Assembly (NCBI GenBank): GCA_028823395.1
Contig: JAPKBO010000002.1
Location: 1-63,124 of the forward strand
DNA from: Planctomycetota bacterium
GTDB taxonomy: Bacteria; Planctomycetota; UBA1135; GCA-002686595
Reading direction: 5' to 3'
DNA: 63,124 nt
Position numbers and translations under genes: made by a program. Below are positions 40,681 to 60,615 of the stretch, piece by piece; positions within the stretch are counted from its first letter, which is position 1, and every line of letters begins with the position of its first letter. The notes beneath the pieces were generated by a model. It was not told the origin of the DNA and did not search any database. It was given only the letters and a program-made list of their open reading frames with translations.

Positions 40681-43600
40681 CTACTCCGGCGTCGAACCAG
40701 CTCCCACCGAATCGCCCGGAGCTTCCGCTTGGGAAGCCACCGTCGGACCCGGAGGAACGATCTCGACCACGGGTTCGCGGCTTTCTTGATCCACAGCATC
40801 GGCGGACCGAGACGTGCCCGTGGTCTCACCGGGCACAAATCTCTCAACCTCATCCAACTCCACGGAGACGAAGCGCGAGACGCCCTTCACTTCCATGGTC
40901 ACGCCGAACAGCGATTGGCAGGCGGACATGGTGCCCTTGTTGTGGGTAACCACGATGAACTGTGTCGTCACCGCGAAGCCGCTCAACATGGCCAGGAAGC
41001 GGTCGACATTGGCGTCGTCCAGAGCAGCGTCGACCTCATCCAACACACAGAACGGGCTAGGCTGGGTCTTGAACACGGCGAAGAGCAGAGCCAGCGCCGT
41101 CATGGAACGTTGGCCACCAGAAAGCAAGCCAATCGGGAGCGGCTTGCGCCCAGGCGGACGGGCGATGATCTCCACGCCCGCTTCCAGCACGTCAACGCCC
41201 TCTTCCAGTATCACGTCAGCCGTTCCCCCACCGAACAGCTGTCGGAAGATAGAGCGGAAGTTCTCGCGCACGATTGCGAAGGTCTCCTCGAACAACCGGC
41301 GGCTCTCCTCATCGATCTTCTCGATGGTATCCATCAAGGTCTTGCGCGAGGTGGCCAGATCTTCGGACTGGGTTTCCAAGAATCCCAAGCGCCCCTCGAC
41401 CTCTGCCAATTCATCCACGGCCTCGGTGTTCACGGGACCGAGCTTCTCGAGGATGGCCTTCAATTCCGTAACCCGGCTCTCAAGCTCCTGCATCGCCGGC
41501 GCCTCGGCCAACTCGGCCTCGGGCTCAAAGTCCTCCCGCAAATCACTTGCTTGGAGACTGAGATCCTCATCGGCCCGGATCAGGAGCTCCTCCCGTGCCA
41601 GCTCAGTCTTCTGCGCACACAAACGCTTCTCCGACTGCACTTCCACGAGCTGGTCCAGATTGCGCTGAACATCTTCAGCCTTCGCCCGCACCTCACGAGT
41701 ACGCGCAGCCCCGCTGCGCTCCAGCTCCCGGAGCTCCCCTAGGCGGCCTTCGAGCTTGTCCTTCCTAATAGTCAGAGCCTCGCCGTCCTGAGTCAGGCCC
41801 TCGGCGTCGCGCTCACCCTGTTCTGCGTTGGCCAAGAAGTTGGCCGAGCGTCCCTCGGCACGGACCCGTTCGGCCTGGTCCTCTTCACAGCGGCGCACGC
41901 TGTCCTCTACGCGTCGCCGTAGGGCTTCCAGTTCCCCCTGCAACCGGGTGGTCTCTACTCGAGCCTTCGCCTCCGCCCTGGAAAGAGCCTCGCGCTCTTC
42001 TTCCATGCTACGGCGAGTCTTCTCCACTTCCTCTAGGCGCGCATTGGTCTGTGTAAATGCCTCCTCGCTCTCGAGGCGTTTTGCCTGGGCGAGCTGCAGG
42101 TTGGCGGCCAAGACAGCCAGCTCCTCGCGTGCGCGCGATTCCACCCCTGCATGCTCTTCGCGCACCGCCTCCTGATCGGTCAATCGGGCGGATGCCGTTT
42201 GAGCCTCGCCGCTTGCTTCCGCAGCCGAAATGCGCGCACTCTCATGTTCTTTGGTCGCTTGCCGGTGAGCCAAACGGTTGGCTTCAACGGCCTGCCCCAG
42301 TTGAATGATGCCGTCACGGTCCCGACCCAGCATTCCCTCAAGAGCTTCCATCTCGGAGCTCAATCCCTCGGCCATGGACCTGCGCCCCATGGTTCCCTGA
42401 GCAATCTCCCGGGAACCACCCATCGCGCCCGATGCGTCCACAAGCTCGCCGCTGGGCGTCACATAGCGCCAGTGAGGTTCGCGCTTGACCAACTCCAGGG
42501 CACTGGCGAAGTCCCGCACCACGACCACGTCCCCAAGGAGCTTGTCCACCAGAGGGCGCAGGTCCTCGGCGCACTGCACCAGGTCCGAGAGACGGCCCTC
42601 TACGCTGGCACCGTAGGGTTCGAAGGCGATAAACGATGATGAGTCTAAGCGGCCCAGGCTGAGGGAGCCCAAGGCAGACGTGAAGCCATCCGAAGCCATG
42701 CCTTTAGGAACCAGCACCTCCGCTTGCCCGTGATTACCCGCGGCCAACCACTCAAGGACGACCTGAGCTTCGCCGGCGCCGGGGGCCATGAGAGCCTGAG
42801 CTCTCTCCCCCAAGACTGCATCCAAGGCCCGCGCAAGGCGCACATCCACATGAAGGTGATCCGCCAGCAATCCGTGCAGGATCCCGGCAGTGCAGGGCCC
42901 AGCCCCTTCGGCCACAGCCTGGAGGACGCAACTGGCACCCGCAGCCAAACCGCCCCCCCCCTCGCCGCTCTCCAGGAGAGCTTCGCGCCGTGCGTCGAGG
43001 CTGGCGTGGGCCAGCTTGTGCTCGCGCAGCTCGGACTGGCCGCTCTGCAAGCTCGCTTCGGCAGCAGCCAACTCGCTCAGCGCCTCGGCCAGGCTCTTGT
43101 CCCGAGCTTCCAGAGCCTGCTGGGCATCAACGGCAAGAGTGTGCATCTCCTCCACGCCGGCACGCGCGCCTGTCAGCTCCCCATCCACCTGACCAAGCCG
43201 CTCCGTCGCGCGCCCCAAGCGTGCGCGCCCGTCTTCGATCGCGGTCTCCAGATGTACGGTTCGATTCTGAGCACCGGTGCGCTCATGCAGGCATGCGAGC
43301 AGTCGCTCGTTTTGGTCAGCGGAGTCCTGGCGCGCCTGCTTGTAACTACGAGAGAGGATGAGCACCCGGTCTTTCAAACCAGAGGCCTCTTCCTCGGCCT
43401 GCCGCGCCACAGTCTCCAGCTCGAGAAGCGCGTTACTCGCAACCTCTTGCTCCGCGCGTCGCTCGGAAATCTGATTGCCAAGCTCCTGCGCGCGCTCCCC
43501 TTCTTCCTGTGCGGAACTGCGCCACGCATGAACTCGCAAAGCCAATTGAGTCTTGCGCTCGTCAAGCGTAGCGAGGGAAGCATTCAGATTCCCGACCTGG

Positions 43601-44466
43601 GTCGAGAGGGAATCGAGCTCAGCGACAACCCGCGAGCGCTCATCCTCATGCGCGGAAACTTCCTCCTCCGCTGCAGACCTTTCTGCCCGCATCGCATTCC
43701 CATTTTCCTCAAGCGTCTCGAGCTCGGGGAAAAGCGCGGCCAACTCACTGTCCTGCTCGTACAGACGATGCTGCAAGAAGCGACCGCGTGCGAGAGTCCA
43801 CTCGTCCCGTGCCGCCACCCAGCGCTCGGCCTTGCCAGCCTGAATTTTCAGCGAACGTACACGCGTACGCAGCTCTCCCATCAGGTCCGCTAGGCGCGAC
43901 ACGTCCTGCTCAACACTCTTCAGTCTCAGCCCCGTCTCGTGCCGACGTTGGCGATAACGACTGATCCCGGCAGCCTCCTCGAAGACGGCTCTACGCTGAG
44001 CCGGGTTGGCGGACAGAACGGCGTCGATGCGCCCCTGCTCCAGCACGGAGTAGCCCCGCGACCCCAGACCCGTGCCGTACAGCAACTCGCGCACGTCCTT
44101 GAGGCGTACTCGGGCACCGTCGATGTGGTACTCGCCCTCGCCGCTCTTGTAGAGCATGCGGGTGATTGAAAATTCGACGCCCATCTCCTCGACCACGCCA
44201 TCGCGGTTGTCGATCACCAGGGTCACTTCCGCCACGGACATTTCCGGGCGGGAGGCGGATCCCTTGAAGATCACATCCGTCATGCCCTCGCCGCGCATGG
44301 AGGTCGGGCGGGTCTCTCCTAAGACCCACCGCACGGCGTCAACAACGTTGCTCTTGCCGCAGCCGTTGGGCCCGACGATGCCGAGCAGGTGCTGGCCGCC
44401 AAAATTGAAGACGGTGCGATCGGCGAAGGACTTGAAGCCCTCAAGTTCGAGACGGTTAAGACGCAT
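40681..44466 (-). CDS. smc: SMC chromosome segregation ATPase
   Basis: This 1261-residue protein has the SMC layout: N-terminal Walker A (GPNGCGKS, residues 32-39), a long coiled coil, a central hinge (about 510-680, with HVDVRLARALDAVLGERAQAL), a second coiled coil, and a C-terminal ATPase half (LLSGGQRSMTALALLFAV near 1115, FCVLDEVDAALDDANVDRF). A C-terminal tail of about 50 residues beyond the core is acidic and Pro-rich. SMC condenses and untangles sister chromosomes with ScpA/ScpB. It starts 13 bases after the NrdD-like gene. Confidence 0.96.
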   Translation of the reverse strand: MRLNRLELEGFKSFADRTVFNFGGQHLLGIVGPNGCGKSNVVDAVRWVLGETRPTSMRGEGMTDVIFKGSASRPEMSVAEVTLVIDNRDGVVEEMGVEFSITRMLYKSGEGEYHIDGARVRLKDVRELLYGTGLGSRGYSVLEQGRIDAVLSANPAQRRAVFEEAAGISRYRQRRHETGLRLKSVEQDVSRLADLMGELRTRVRSLKIQAGKAERWVAARDEWTLARGRFLQHRLYEQDSELAALFPELETLEENGNAMRAERSAAEEEVSAHEDERSRVVAELDSLSTQVGNLNASLATLDERKTQLALRVHAWRSSAQEEGERAQELGNQISERRAEQEVASNALLELETVARQAEEEASGLKDRVLILSRSYKQARQDSADQNERLLACLHERTGAQNRTVHLETAIEDGRARLGRATERLGQVDGELTGARAGVEEMHTLAVDAQQALEARDKSLAEALSELAAAEASLQSGQSELREHKLAHASLDARREALLESGEGGGGLAAGASCVLQAVAEGAGPCTAGILHGLLADHLHVDVRLARALDAVLGERAQALMAPGAGEAQVVLEWLAAGNHGQAEVLVPKGMASDGFTSALGSLSLGRLDSSSFIAFEPYGASVEGRLSDLVQCAEDLRPLVDKLLGDVVVVRDFASALELVKREPHWRYVTPSGELVDASGAMGGSREIAQGTMGRRSMAEGLSSEMEALEGMLGRDRDGIIQLGQAVEANRLAHRQATKEHESARISAAEASGEAQTASARLTDQEAVREEHAGVESRAREELAVLAANLQLAQAKRLESEEAFTQTNARLEEVEKTRRSMEEEREALSRAEAKARVETTRLQGELEALRRRVEDSVRRCEEDQAERVRAEGRSANFLANAEQGERDAEGLTQDGEALTIRKDKLEGRLGELRELERSGAARTREVRAKAEDVQRNLDQLVEVQSEKRLCAQKTELAREELLIRADEDLSLQASDLREDFEPEAELAEAPAMQELESRVTELKAILEKLGPVNTEAVDELAEVEGRLGFLETQSEDLATSRKTLMDTIEKIDEESRRLFEETFAIVRENFRSIFRQLFGGGTADVILEEGVDVLEAGVEIIARPPGRKPLPIGLLSGGQRSMTALALLFAVFKTQPSPFCVLDEVDAALDDANVDRFLAMLSGFAVTTQFIVVTHNKGTMSACQSLFGVTMEVKGVSRFVSVELDEVERFVPGETTGTSRSADAVDQESREPVVEIVPPGPTVASQAEAPGDSVGAGSTPE

Positions 44467-44479
44467 AGAGGTCGACAGT

Positions 44480-46627
44480 CTAACTTCTGACTGGGGAGAA
44501 CAGGTTGTCCCCGGCCGAGTCCGTGGAAAATCCGGGATCGGTCAGGGGGAGGGAGGGTTCGGGTTCAGAGATTCCGCTCCGCCGCTCGTGAAAGAGGCGC
44601 CAGGCGTCGAGACCGGAACTGACATCCCGGTCGGCCGACACCCAGAGCGGATTGGAAGCCAGAGCTCCCGCCCGCAGGGTAGAACACACGATGGCCTGTT
44701 CGCCAGCATCCTCTGAAGGGTCCTGCAATGAACTTCGCGCCGGCAGAGCGACAAACCCCGCCCCATAGGGGCGATCGCCCTCAGCCTCAGCTGCCGGCAA
44801 GTCCGCGAACAGCCGCGGCTGACTGGCTCGGGGCAGCTTGGCATCGGCCTGCGCCATGGCCAAGCGGGCGTCATCCCCAAAGAAGGAGGAAACGCACACA
44901 GAAAGTCCACGCTCGTCGGCGAAGCGCTTGGTGGTGTCCGCCATCACGCCAAGAAGCCGCGCGCCTTGGGCGGAGCGCACCACCCCATCCCCAAGGATGC
45001 GCAGCGCCTCGGCAAGGCCGACCGGCACCACGGCGAACCCGCGACGCTCCCGAAGACCGTCCTCACGCGCAGCCGGGTGGCGGCGCTGGAAAGCGTCCAG
45101 GGCTTCGATCCCGTCGAGGGCGGATTGAACTCCCGCCCCCAGGGCCTCGAACAGCAGGTCCTCGCGCCAGGGACCCGCCTGACGGGCAAGCCGAGGGAGG
45201 TTCAGGGCGACGGCACCGCCGCAGGCCAAGAGCCCCGCCTCGCGACGACCGCGCCTGCAACCAGGTGCCACCCAACGAGCATTTGTACCGTGCCAAATCG
45301 GGACCAACGAGCCCCCGGCCAGGAGCTGCGCGGCCTGCTCCCGGAGCTCGGGGTCGGTGGCGATGGCCGGGGACAGTTCATCCCAGGACAGATACAGGCG
45401 CGGATGAGCCTGGCCCGCCTGGCGCAGGGCTTCAAGCTCGGGGAGCAGGCGACGCAGCAGCGCACCTCCGCGTCCACCCGGGCTAGCTAGGTCCAGAAAG
45501 CGCCCCGTGGCATGGCTCAGGGCGCCCATGGCGGCCAGCAGATCCCGAACACGATCCTTGGCGCGGGCGGAGCGCAGCAGCGGTGAGAGCACACTATGCA
45601 GCCCCTCCACCACGACCCCATGGCTAACTCCGCGCAAGTAGTGGGCCAACTCGCCAAGCATTTCAGAGCCGGAGTGGGCACCTGGTTCAGCACGCAGGCA
45701 GAGGTTTGCGGGAATGGCGCGGGAGAGGGCCAGGTGTGGGCGCCGCAATCCCTCCACCCACAGTGTGCCTAGACGGTGTAGCTCGGAGGTGCGCTCGTCG
45801 AGCATGTCCACGAGGGAGTAGCGGCCAAGAATGGCATCCGCCACCTCGTCTTCGAGCCCCGCGCGGCTCCGACCCGGCGCATCGAGGGGATCGGTCACAG
45901 AGTTCGCGCGCACGCTGGGCCTCGTCTTCCCGAGCAGGCGTCGTAGATCATGGCGCGGTATCCCAATGGGTCCCTGCCGATGCAGGGCCGTCTCCAATCC
46001 CATGGCCATCAGCTCGTTATCCACGAACTCACGGATAAGGGGGGTGGAAATGCGTGCCAGGCCGGAATCGCAGATGCGGCGCTCCACGCGATCGGCCACA
46101 TCCTCGCTCACCGCTCGCGGCAGGTCGGCCTCCTCCATGAGAGCCGCCACGATGCGCGCCTGACTCCAGGGAGAAGTACCGGCACCCGCTCGCACCCAGG
46201 GCATGCGCCCCTCGCGTTCTTCTCGGTCCGTGATGGTCAACGCCGCCCGTGCCCGAGCGCGCCGGTCGCGATAGAGAATGTAGGCACGCGCGACCTTTGC
46301 CCGGCCCATCTCCACCAGCGCCTGCTCCACGAGATCCTGGACCTGCTCCACGCCGGGCGGATCGCCCGACCGCGAAGCCAAGGCCATGGTGACGACCTCT
46401 GCCACGTCCCGGGCAAACCCCGGATCGTCTTCCCCGACGGCGAGCAGAGCCCGCAGCACAGCCCCCTCAATGCGCCCAGAATCGAACGGCACCTCGCTCC
46501 CGTCACGCTTTACAAGCCGGCGCTTGCCCAGGCGAAACCCCTGGGGGGACTCATCAGAAGAATCCGCATGGGGAGGCACCGGCAGCCCCTCGACCTGGGG
46601 CTCGTCAGAAGAGTCGGGCGCCGTCAC
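44480..46627 (-). CDS. ATP-cone plus NrdD-like protein lacking the glycyl-radical domain
   Basis: This is a 715-residue protein. Residues of about 35-125 form an ATP-cone (KRRLVKRDGSEVPFDSGRI), and 152-232 a second cone-like unit. Residues 260-685 resemble class III (anaerobic) ribonucleotide reductase: ANLCLR (about 307), GCRRGRREAG...VALNLPRLARQAG (457-485) and VPVGLAEALRILG. The usual NrdD C terminus, with zinc Cys pairs and a glycyl-radical RxxGY motif, is absent; the chain ends at a Pro/Ser-rich tail. It is therefore probably inactive as a reductase. The GTG start overlaps the nrdR stop (GTGA), so it may be a nucleotide sensor; that is inference. Confidence 0.65.
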   Translation of the reverse strand: MTAPDSSDEPQVEGLPVPPHADSSDESPQGFRLGKRRLVKRDGSEVPFDSGRIEGAVLRALLAVGEDDPGFARDVAEVVTMALASRSGDPPGVEQVQDLVEQALVEMGRAKVARAYILYRDRRARARAALTITDREEREGRMPWVRAGAGTSPWSQARIVAALMEEADLPRAVSEDVADRVERRICDSGLARISTPLIREFVDNELMAMGLETALHRQGPIGIPRHDLRRLLGKTRPSVRANSVTDPLDAPGRSRAGLEDEVADAILGRYSLVDMLDERTSELHRLGTLWVEGLRRPHLALSRAIPANLCLRAEPGAHSGSEMLGELAHYLRGVSHGVVVEGLHSVLSPLLRSARAKDRVRDLLAAMGALSHATGRFLDLASPGGRGGALLRRLLPELEALRQAGQAHPRLYLSWDELSPAIATDPELREQAAQLLAGGSLVPIWHGTNARWVAPGCRRGRREAGLLACGGAVALNLPRLARQAGPWREDLLFEALGAGVQSALDGIEALDAFQRRHPAAREDGLRERRGFAVVPVGLAEALRILGDGVVRSAQGARLLGVMADTTKRFADERGLSVCVSSFFGDDARLAMAQADAKLPRASQPRLFADLPAAEAEGDRPYGAGFVALPARSSLQDPSEDAGEQAIVCSTLRAGALASNPLWVSADRDVSSGLDAWRLFHERRSGISEPEPSLPLTDPGFSTDSAGDNLFSPVRS

Positions 46628-47082
46628 GCTTTCTCGCCCCCCAGATCCTCTAGCTCCTCCAGGAACTGGGTCACGTCCTTGAATTCACGATAGACGCTGG
46701 CAAAGCGCACGTAGGCGACCTGATTCAGCTCGCGCAGCTCATCCATGACGAGCGCGCCGATCACTGTACTCTCCACCTCGCGGTCGTACTCGTTCTGGCA
46801 GCGAGCCTCCACTCTTGCGGCCGCCTTCTCGATTTCATCAAAGGGCACAGGCAACTTCTCGCAAGCCACCAGCATGCCCTTCACCACACGCTCGAGCTCA
46901 AAGCGCACGCGCTCACCATTCTTCTTGACGACACGCAGAGCGCTCTCCTCAATGCGCTCGTAGGTGGTGAAGCGCTGGAAGCACTTCATACACTCCCGGC
47001 GCCGTCGGGTGACAGACCCGGAGGCAGAGGTTCGGGAGTCGACGACGCGGACGTCGTCCTCCTTGCAGCGGGGACATTTCAT
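46624..47082 (-). CDS. nrdR: Transcriptional repressor NrdR
   Basis: This 152-residue regulator of ribonucleotide reductase genes has an N-terminal zinc ribbon (Cys3, Cys6, Cys31, Cys34; MKCPRCKEDD, RRRRECMKC) and a C-terminal ATP-cone (about 49-139, VVKKNGERVRFELERV) that senses ATP/dATP. ATG 47082 was chosen since it begins at the zinc ribbon. No clear NrdR box was found in its own leader. It is translationally coupled to the NrdD-like gene. Confidence 0.95.
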   Translation of the reverse strand: MKCPRCKEDDVRVVDSRTSASGSVTRRRRECMKCFQRFTTYERIEESALRVVKKNGERVRFELERVVKGMLVACEKLPVPFDEIEKAAARVEARCQNEYDREVESTVIGALVMDELRELNQVAYVRFASVYREFKDVTQFLEELEDLGGEKA

Positions 47083-47198
47083 GGTCGGGAGGGGCCGACG
47101 CACACTCTACATCTTGTGGGGTTGGAGGCGGTAGATCCCTACCAACACGACCTGTCCCGTGCCCCCGTGGGACCGCGCGGGACCGGGACGACGCTCCA

Positions 47199-59964: not shown

Positions 59965-60615
59965 TCAGTGCGAACCTCCTGGAGGCTCGATACCCACTTC
60001 ATCTTGGGGTTCGCTCTCGCCCCAGCGAGCGCCGAGTCGGTGCTCGACCCCGAGACGGTCAAGAGCCTTGGCTACCACGAATTGCACCAGATCTTCCACC
60101 GTCTTGGGATGTTGGTAGAAGCCCGGCATGCAGGGAAGAATCGACGCACCCATGCGAGCAAGCTGGAGCATGTTAGCTAGGTGCACCTCGGATAACGGAG
60201 TCTCCCTCGGCATGACCAGGAGAGGACGGCCCTCCTTCAAGGCCACGTCGGCGGCACGTTCCACCAGATTGGAAGAGAAGCCATGGGTCACACGGGCGAG
60301 GGTTCCCATAGAGCACGGGGCGAGAATCACGGCCTTGGTCAGAGCTGTTCCCGAAGCCGCTGGAGACTCAACGGCTGCGGACGGAAAAGCGCGCACGGAT
60401 GCGGCGATCTCCTCTCCCAGCCATCCGCTTAGGCAATCCGCCAGGCGCTCTCCGCCGGCTCCCGGATCAACTCCCAGTTCGTGCGCCATGACCTTGGCAC
60501 CAGCGTTGGTCACGGACAGGTCCACGTCGTGGCCCGCGCGTACCAGTTCACGCACGAGAGCGGTGCTGTAGACGTGCCCGCTCGCCCCTGTGATGCCGAT
60601 AAAATAGCGCCCCAT
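59965..60615 (-). CDS. ubiX: UbiX-like flavin prenyltransferase
   Basis: This 216-residue flavoprotein makes prenylated FMN, the cofactor of UbiD-type decarboxylases. It has ITGASGHVYSTALV at the N terminus, LAPCSMGTLARVTHG in the middle, and RPLLVMPRETPLSEVHLANML and PGFYQHPKTVEDLV at the end, all typical. A UbiD partner is not in the window. ATG 60615. Confidence 0.92.
   Translation of the reverse strand: MGRYFIGITGASGHVYSTALVRELVRAGHDVDLSVTNAGAKVMAHELGVDPGAGGERLADCLSGWLGEEIAASVRAFPSAAVESPAASGTALTKAVILAPCSMGTLARVTHGFSSNLVERAADVALKEGRPLLVMPRETPLSEVHLANMLQLARMGASILPCMPGFYQHPKTVEDLVQFVVAKALDRLGVEHRLGARWGESEPQDEVGIEPPGGSH

Follow-up and report, generated by a model that had tools for sequence, protein, structure and literature searches.

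Ribonucleotide reductase is an essential and intensively studied enzyme, and to our knowledge no natural pseudoenzyme of it has been described. We found no account of an NrdD without its glycyl radical, or of a reductase pseudoenzyme, in the open papers searched, most subscription journals being outside the scope of that search. In the class III reductase NrdD of Prevotella copri, Lys7, Arg8, Tyr83, Arg87 and Arg91 are named for nucleotide binding, and the core ends at residue 671, with the glycyl radical domain at residues 676-739 (PMC11226230). NrdR, the transcriptional repressor of ribonucleotide reductase genes, senses ATP and dATP via its ATP-cone and forms nucleotide-dependent oligomers (PMC9110341). 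Across the phylum Planctomycetota, many families carry nrdR followed by an intact two-cone NrdD of ~815 residues (e.g. L346:2292-4739). Genome G201 has the gene order nrdR, nrdD (TIGR02487, 413.8 bits; glycyl motif RIVGYF), nrdG2 (TIGR02495, 177 bits) and smc. At the locus studied here, the gene that follows nrdR encodes an NrdD-like protein of 715 residues.

The window, that is, the whole stretch of 63,124 nucleotides that was analysed, belongs to a 3.8 Mb MAG that comprises 359 contigs and is 85% complete. The nrdR gene (46624..47082, minus strand) encodes 152 residues and is a bona fide NrdR, scoring 180.1 bits with TIGR00244 against a cut-off of 124.65. It ends at 46624, where its TGA stop overlaps the GTG start of the 715-residue protein (44480..46627, minus strand) as GTGA. 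The next gene in the same direction is smc (40681..44466, minus strand), whose start at 44466 leaves a gap of 13 bp after the stop of the 715-residue protein, and this order recurs in relatives. The GTGA coupling to nrdR and the lack of space before smc for a radical domain, both pointed out in a preliminary description of the locus, were thus confirmed. The open frame is conserved in 42 homologues, and nrdR adjoins the gene in all homologues of the taxonomic order (42/42, window included). An NrdR-box-like palindrome, CACAAGATGTAGAG (47105..47118, minus strand; 13/14 positions), starts 36 bp ahead of the start codon of nrdR, and no other site in the 63 kb window matches as well. Scores of at least 12/14 were obtained in 30 of the 42 upstream regions, against ~0.2 expected from shuffles. 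Only one conserved box-like site was found upstream of nrdR, and of the second box that normally accompanies it there was no clear sign in the window. Another match within the window, CACTTCATCTTGGG at 59995-60008 (12/14), is tied to no reductase gene examined and may be due to chance.

Pfam identified two ATP-cone stretches in the 715-residue protein and nothing else (PF03477, 84.6 bits, over the cut-off). The NCBIfam matches were to reductase ATP-cones and fell far under their cut-offs, and the curated cut-offs of PF13597 and TIGR02487 were not met. ATP-cone 1 (residues 39-124; 46256..46513, minus strand) keeps the nucleotide-contact residues K40, R41, Y119 and R123, with R127 lying just beyond it, and these five align in that order with the P. 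copri NrdD residues named above (8p23). The second, degenerate ATP-cone (residues ~145-232; 45932..46195, minus strand) matches cone 2 of the intact two-cone NrdDs of other Planctomycetota, as reflected by the second-cone profile, which hit those NrdDs at 1e-28 to 1e-34, and by the agreement of an intact NrdD second cone, RISTALIRELVDNEL, with that of the 715-residue protein, RISTPLIREFVDNEL.

The remainder of the protein is an NrdD-like alpha/beta barrel core (residues 236-684; 44576..45922, minus strand). After removal of the ATP-cones, an hhalign comparison between a profile of 35 homologues and a profile of 15 true NrdDs gave two collinear matches, one over the AH.GDIHIHDL region (2.5e-5) and the other from NLPR through GL.E.L to RFA..D (3.6e-9). 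An hmmsearch of PDB sequences reached the 1h78 core at 0.014. In a scan of 61 genomes (the own genome and 60 relatives) with the Pfam NRDD model there were five hits, each to a member of the 715-residue protein family and one over the cut-off. LNLPRLARQAG at residues 475-485 corresponds to SINLPRLA/VTLNLPRL in true NrdDs, and N476 of the NLPRLARQAGP motif (residues 476-486; 45170..45202, minus strand) is the conserved active-site Asn of NrdD. The AlphaFold model (pLDDT 84) was used for a Foldseek search, in which the top matches were all NrdD (E 5.6e-13). VIA-align against T4 NrdD (1h78) gave a Z score of 24.0 and 3.3 A over 411 residues, placing model residues 236-684 on NrdD 26-532. The structural alignment on P. 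copri NrdD extends to residue 668, and therefore the 715-residue protein ends at the boundary between the core and the glycyl radical domain; ~30 low-confidence residues follow the end of the barrel. Judged from the predicted structure and the profile comparison, the ~450-residue domain is a class III reductase (NrdD) barrel. An unrelated ATP-cone family was ruled out on the same two grounds, the fold and the core-only match.

The CxxC...CxxC...RxxGY tail is absent from the 715-residue protein and from all 42 members, and the alignment columns of the four-Cys zinc site before the glycyl loop are empty in this protein and its order. A profile of the NrdD tail found no match in the 42 members, while NrdDs outside the build, used as the positive control, were hit at E 1e-24 to 1e-32. 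A frameshift or a missed tail was rejected as the cause, since there is no room before smc and 42 homologues have no tail. Nor was a radical domain or an NrdG2-class activase found elsewhere: over the 61 genomes the tail profile was silent, and the NrdG2 model TIGR02495 exceeded its cut-off in none (0/61; the classical TIGR02491 was not included), generic radical-SAM proteins scoring under the NrdG2 cut-off in the genomes searched. No true NrdD was found elsewhere among these 61 genomes. Because the own genome is 85% complete, absence from it alone is weak evidence, and the 60 relatives carry the point. The catalytic residues have also changed. The equivalents of Cys171 and Cys416 (P. copri NrdD numbering) are not conserved, the catalytic Cys position of the first strand is Ser in the 715-residue protein and variable in the family, and none of the family's cysteines is invariant. 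C457, one column off the place of the thiyl cysteine, is present here and in many relatives and is Leu, Ser, Val, Gly or Ala in others. Taken together, the tandem ATP-cones, the class III reductase-like core and the missing glycyl-radical/zinc-Cys region of the preliminary description all stand, and none of the observations that it said would refute it (a glycyl motif elsewhere in the protein, a separate radical-domain protein or a best match to an unrelated ATP-cone family) was made in the searches described.

A core-only search found the family in 93 of the 154 genomes of the class. Some members outside the order (G222, G256, G234, G175 and G219) have no adjoining nrdR within the stretch examined. 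A table of residues from 62 sequences revealed a decay series, which runs from intact enzymes through proteins that lack the glycine motif but keep the cysteines and the zinc site to later steps in which more is lost. In G212 and G277 the Gly is replaced by Asp (TRIADYF) and the cysteines are replaced; G164, G175 and G219 retain the zinc ribbon only; and the end state, the barrel only, is that of the 715-residue protein and its order. What remains between nrdR and smc in another family of the order is one ATP-cone ORF of ~146-162 codons, without any of the reductase core (L218:856-1293, L219:3103-3561, L220:2726-3193, L221:2970-3455 and L222:3272-3721). In a further family nrdR is followed directly by smc and the gene is absent, showing that it is dispensable there. 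To account for the glycyl-radical label on a tree, a minimum of three to five changes is required, so the radical was probably lost more than once. However, the tree is midpoint-rooted with the pseudoenzymes on long branches, which limits this inference and makes the tree only a rough guide.

Among the nrdR-linked NrdDs of other Planctomycetota, six have no glycyl-radical motif but retain the zinc cysteines, the Asn and both of the catalytic cysteines (L278:742-3144, L295:811-3243, L297:55-2589, L298:796-3315, L299:63-2540 and L344:270-2675). No frameshift that would explain the absence of the motif was found in these six, and they are either recently inactivated enzymes or reductases that use a different radical source. 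Three of the six end in a Cys-Cys pair (SNSCCS, DCCTW and NCCAW). At L309, L312, L314, L316, L319 and L342, an NrdG-like radical-SAM gene persists beside a glycyl-less NrdD, an activase without an evident target. In three genomes a small NrdH/glutaredoxin-like CxxC protein follows the nrdR-linked NrdD (L357:2954-3259, L358:414-788 and L361:2742-3125), which suggests from the gene neighbourhood a redoxin-dependent class III enzyme.

It could be argued that the 715-residue protein is still an active reductase that receives its radical in trans or by another route, given that N476 and the nearby C457 remain and that distant Planctomycetota have ORFs of ~130 residues whose sole match to the NRDD model is its tail part. 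This is scarcely conceivable, however, with a Ser at the first-strand position, no invariant cysteine in the family and no candidate radical source found in the 61 genomes, where neither a tail homologue nor an NrdG2 over cut-off was detected. The graded decay down to gene loss in relatives and the long pseudoenzyme branches in the tree would also fit a functionless relic, a former nrdD whose frame is still open by chance. That explanation is disfavoured by the stop-free frame in nearly all homologues, at ~31-56% identity across genera, by the conserved motifs and by the substitution rates, and we hold it to be highly unlikely. Between the window and two congeners with 88% protein identity, dN/dS was 0.089-0.101 for the core and 0.04-0.07 for the cones; in the same three genomes nrdR gave 0.07-0.08 and smc 0.11-0.12. 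Purifying selection acts on the core as it does on smc and nrdR. The 715-residue protein thus fulfils what is expected of a pseudoenzyme, namely a fold that is kept, catalytic residues that are lost and purifying selection, and we infer, without an activity assay, that it is very probably a reductase pseudoenzyme. The proximity of smc, 13 bp downstream in a recurring nrdR-X-smc order, might instead point to a role in chromosome segregation rather than dNTP control. Yet intact loci have the activase or other genes between the reductase and smc, so the smc neighbourhood predates the pseudoenzyme and is unrelated to its origin, and we regard such a role as extremely unlikely.

The main rival to a partnership with NrdR is that the protein serves as a trans-acting ATP-cone, forming a complex with the class II reductase NrdJ and conferring dATP feedback inhibition on it. 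The own genome encodes a complete NrdJ of 871 residues on another contig (L152:2988-5603), so that a complete ribonucleotide reductase, whose presence elsewhere the preliminary description had left to be checked, does exist; the class II assignment is ours and rests on the single-chain layout and the C-terminal CxxC region. This NrdJ has no ATP-cone, the only ATP-cone genes found in the whole own genome are nrdR and that of the 715-residue protein, and there are precedents for dead paralogues activating an active partner (PMC5201418, PMC3663545). A PF02867 reductase is present in all 61 genomes. On the other hand, in many gene-bearing relatives the reductase has its own cone (PF03477 together with PF02867 in frames of 672-1153 residues); moreover, the constant neighbour is nrdR and not nrdJ. 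We therefore consider a trans-acting cone unlikely, though worth keeping in mind. No convincing NrdR box was found upstream of nrdJ in the own genome, and Rfam revealed no riboswitch near nrdJ. Matches of 13-14/14 to the NrdR box are present in the stretches around the reductases of several relatives.

We favour the explanation that the 715-residue protein is a dead descendant of NrdD kept as a nucleotide-sensing regulator, which as a whole we hold to be probable. The ancestor would have been a class III (anaerobic) NrdD whose gene, with that of the activase, was located between nrdR and smc. Of this enzyme the barrel and a nucleotide-competent ATP-cone remain, whereas the tail with the zinc site and the glycyl radical is gone, as are the conserved catalytic cysteines. 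This loss, like the fold, the homology, the gene order, the purifying selection and the NrdR-box-like site ahead of the operon, has computational evidence behind it. A regulatory role, by contrast, is an inference: a cone has been retained, the gene shares an operon with nrdR, a box-like site precedes that operon, and some relatives have kept nothing but a cone. That the protein is a regulatory nucleotide sensor is likewise the likelier reading, although there are no binding data. In the preliminary description it was suggested to be a nucleotide-sensing pseudoenzyme, of which the pseudoenzyme part is supported and the sensing part only indirectly, through the five retained cone-1 residues. 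We infer that ATP or dATP may bind through cone 1 and change the oligomeric state, as in NrdD and NrdR, and that co-expression with NrdR may tune the dNTP response. The most likely mode of action would be contact with NrdR through the ATP-cones of both proteins; an effect on the class II reductase, which has no cone, would be less likely. By analogy, since NrdR senses ATP and dATP via its ATP-cone and its oligomers depend on nucleotide, a mixed ATP-cone assembly is plausible. No experiment exists on any member, and NrdR as the partner remains a tentative inference. Equally tentative is the extension to a phylum-wide class, in which the nrdR-linked NrdD has lost its glycyl radical several times independently and the dead barrel and ATP-cone have been retained as an NrdR partner that senses dNTPs.

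That the operon of the repressor also holds a dead reductase suggests a further level at which dNTPs are controlled. The intermediates at one genomic place, from the intact enzyme through loss of the glycine, loss of the cysteines, shortening of the barrel and reduction to a single cone to loss of the gene, form a natural record of the passage from enzyme to regulator. They also call for caution: a planctomycete gene annotated as ATP-cone or NrdD does not by that fact point to anaerobic production of dNTPs.

Compared with known systems, the 715-residue protein shares with the two-cone NrdD that other Planctomycetota encode next to nrdR the succession of cone 1, cone 2 and barrel, the place after nrdR, the fold and the NLP motif. 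It differs from NrdD in having no zinc ribbon, glycyl radical, conserved catalytic cysteines or NrdG2-class activase over cut-off, and in scoring under the TIGR02487 and PF13597 cut-offs. With NrdR it has in common the ATP-cone nucleotide sensor and the operon, whereas it lacks the DNA-binding zinc ribbon of NrdR and is a 715-residue protein with a reductase barrel. The trypanosomal AdoMetDC prozyme and deoxyhypusine synthase paralogue (PMC5201418, PMC3663545) are likewise inactive enzyme relatives kept by selection with a proposed regulatory role. In contrast to these paralogues, the 715-residue protein comes from a genome in which no active member of its own enzyme class was found, and the candidates for its partner are a repressor or a reductase of a different class.
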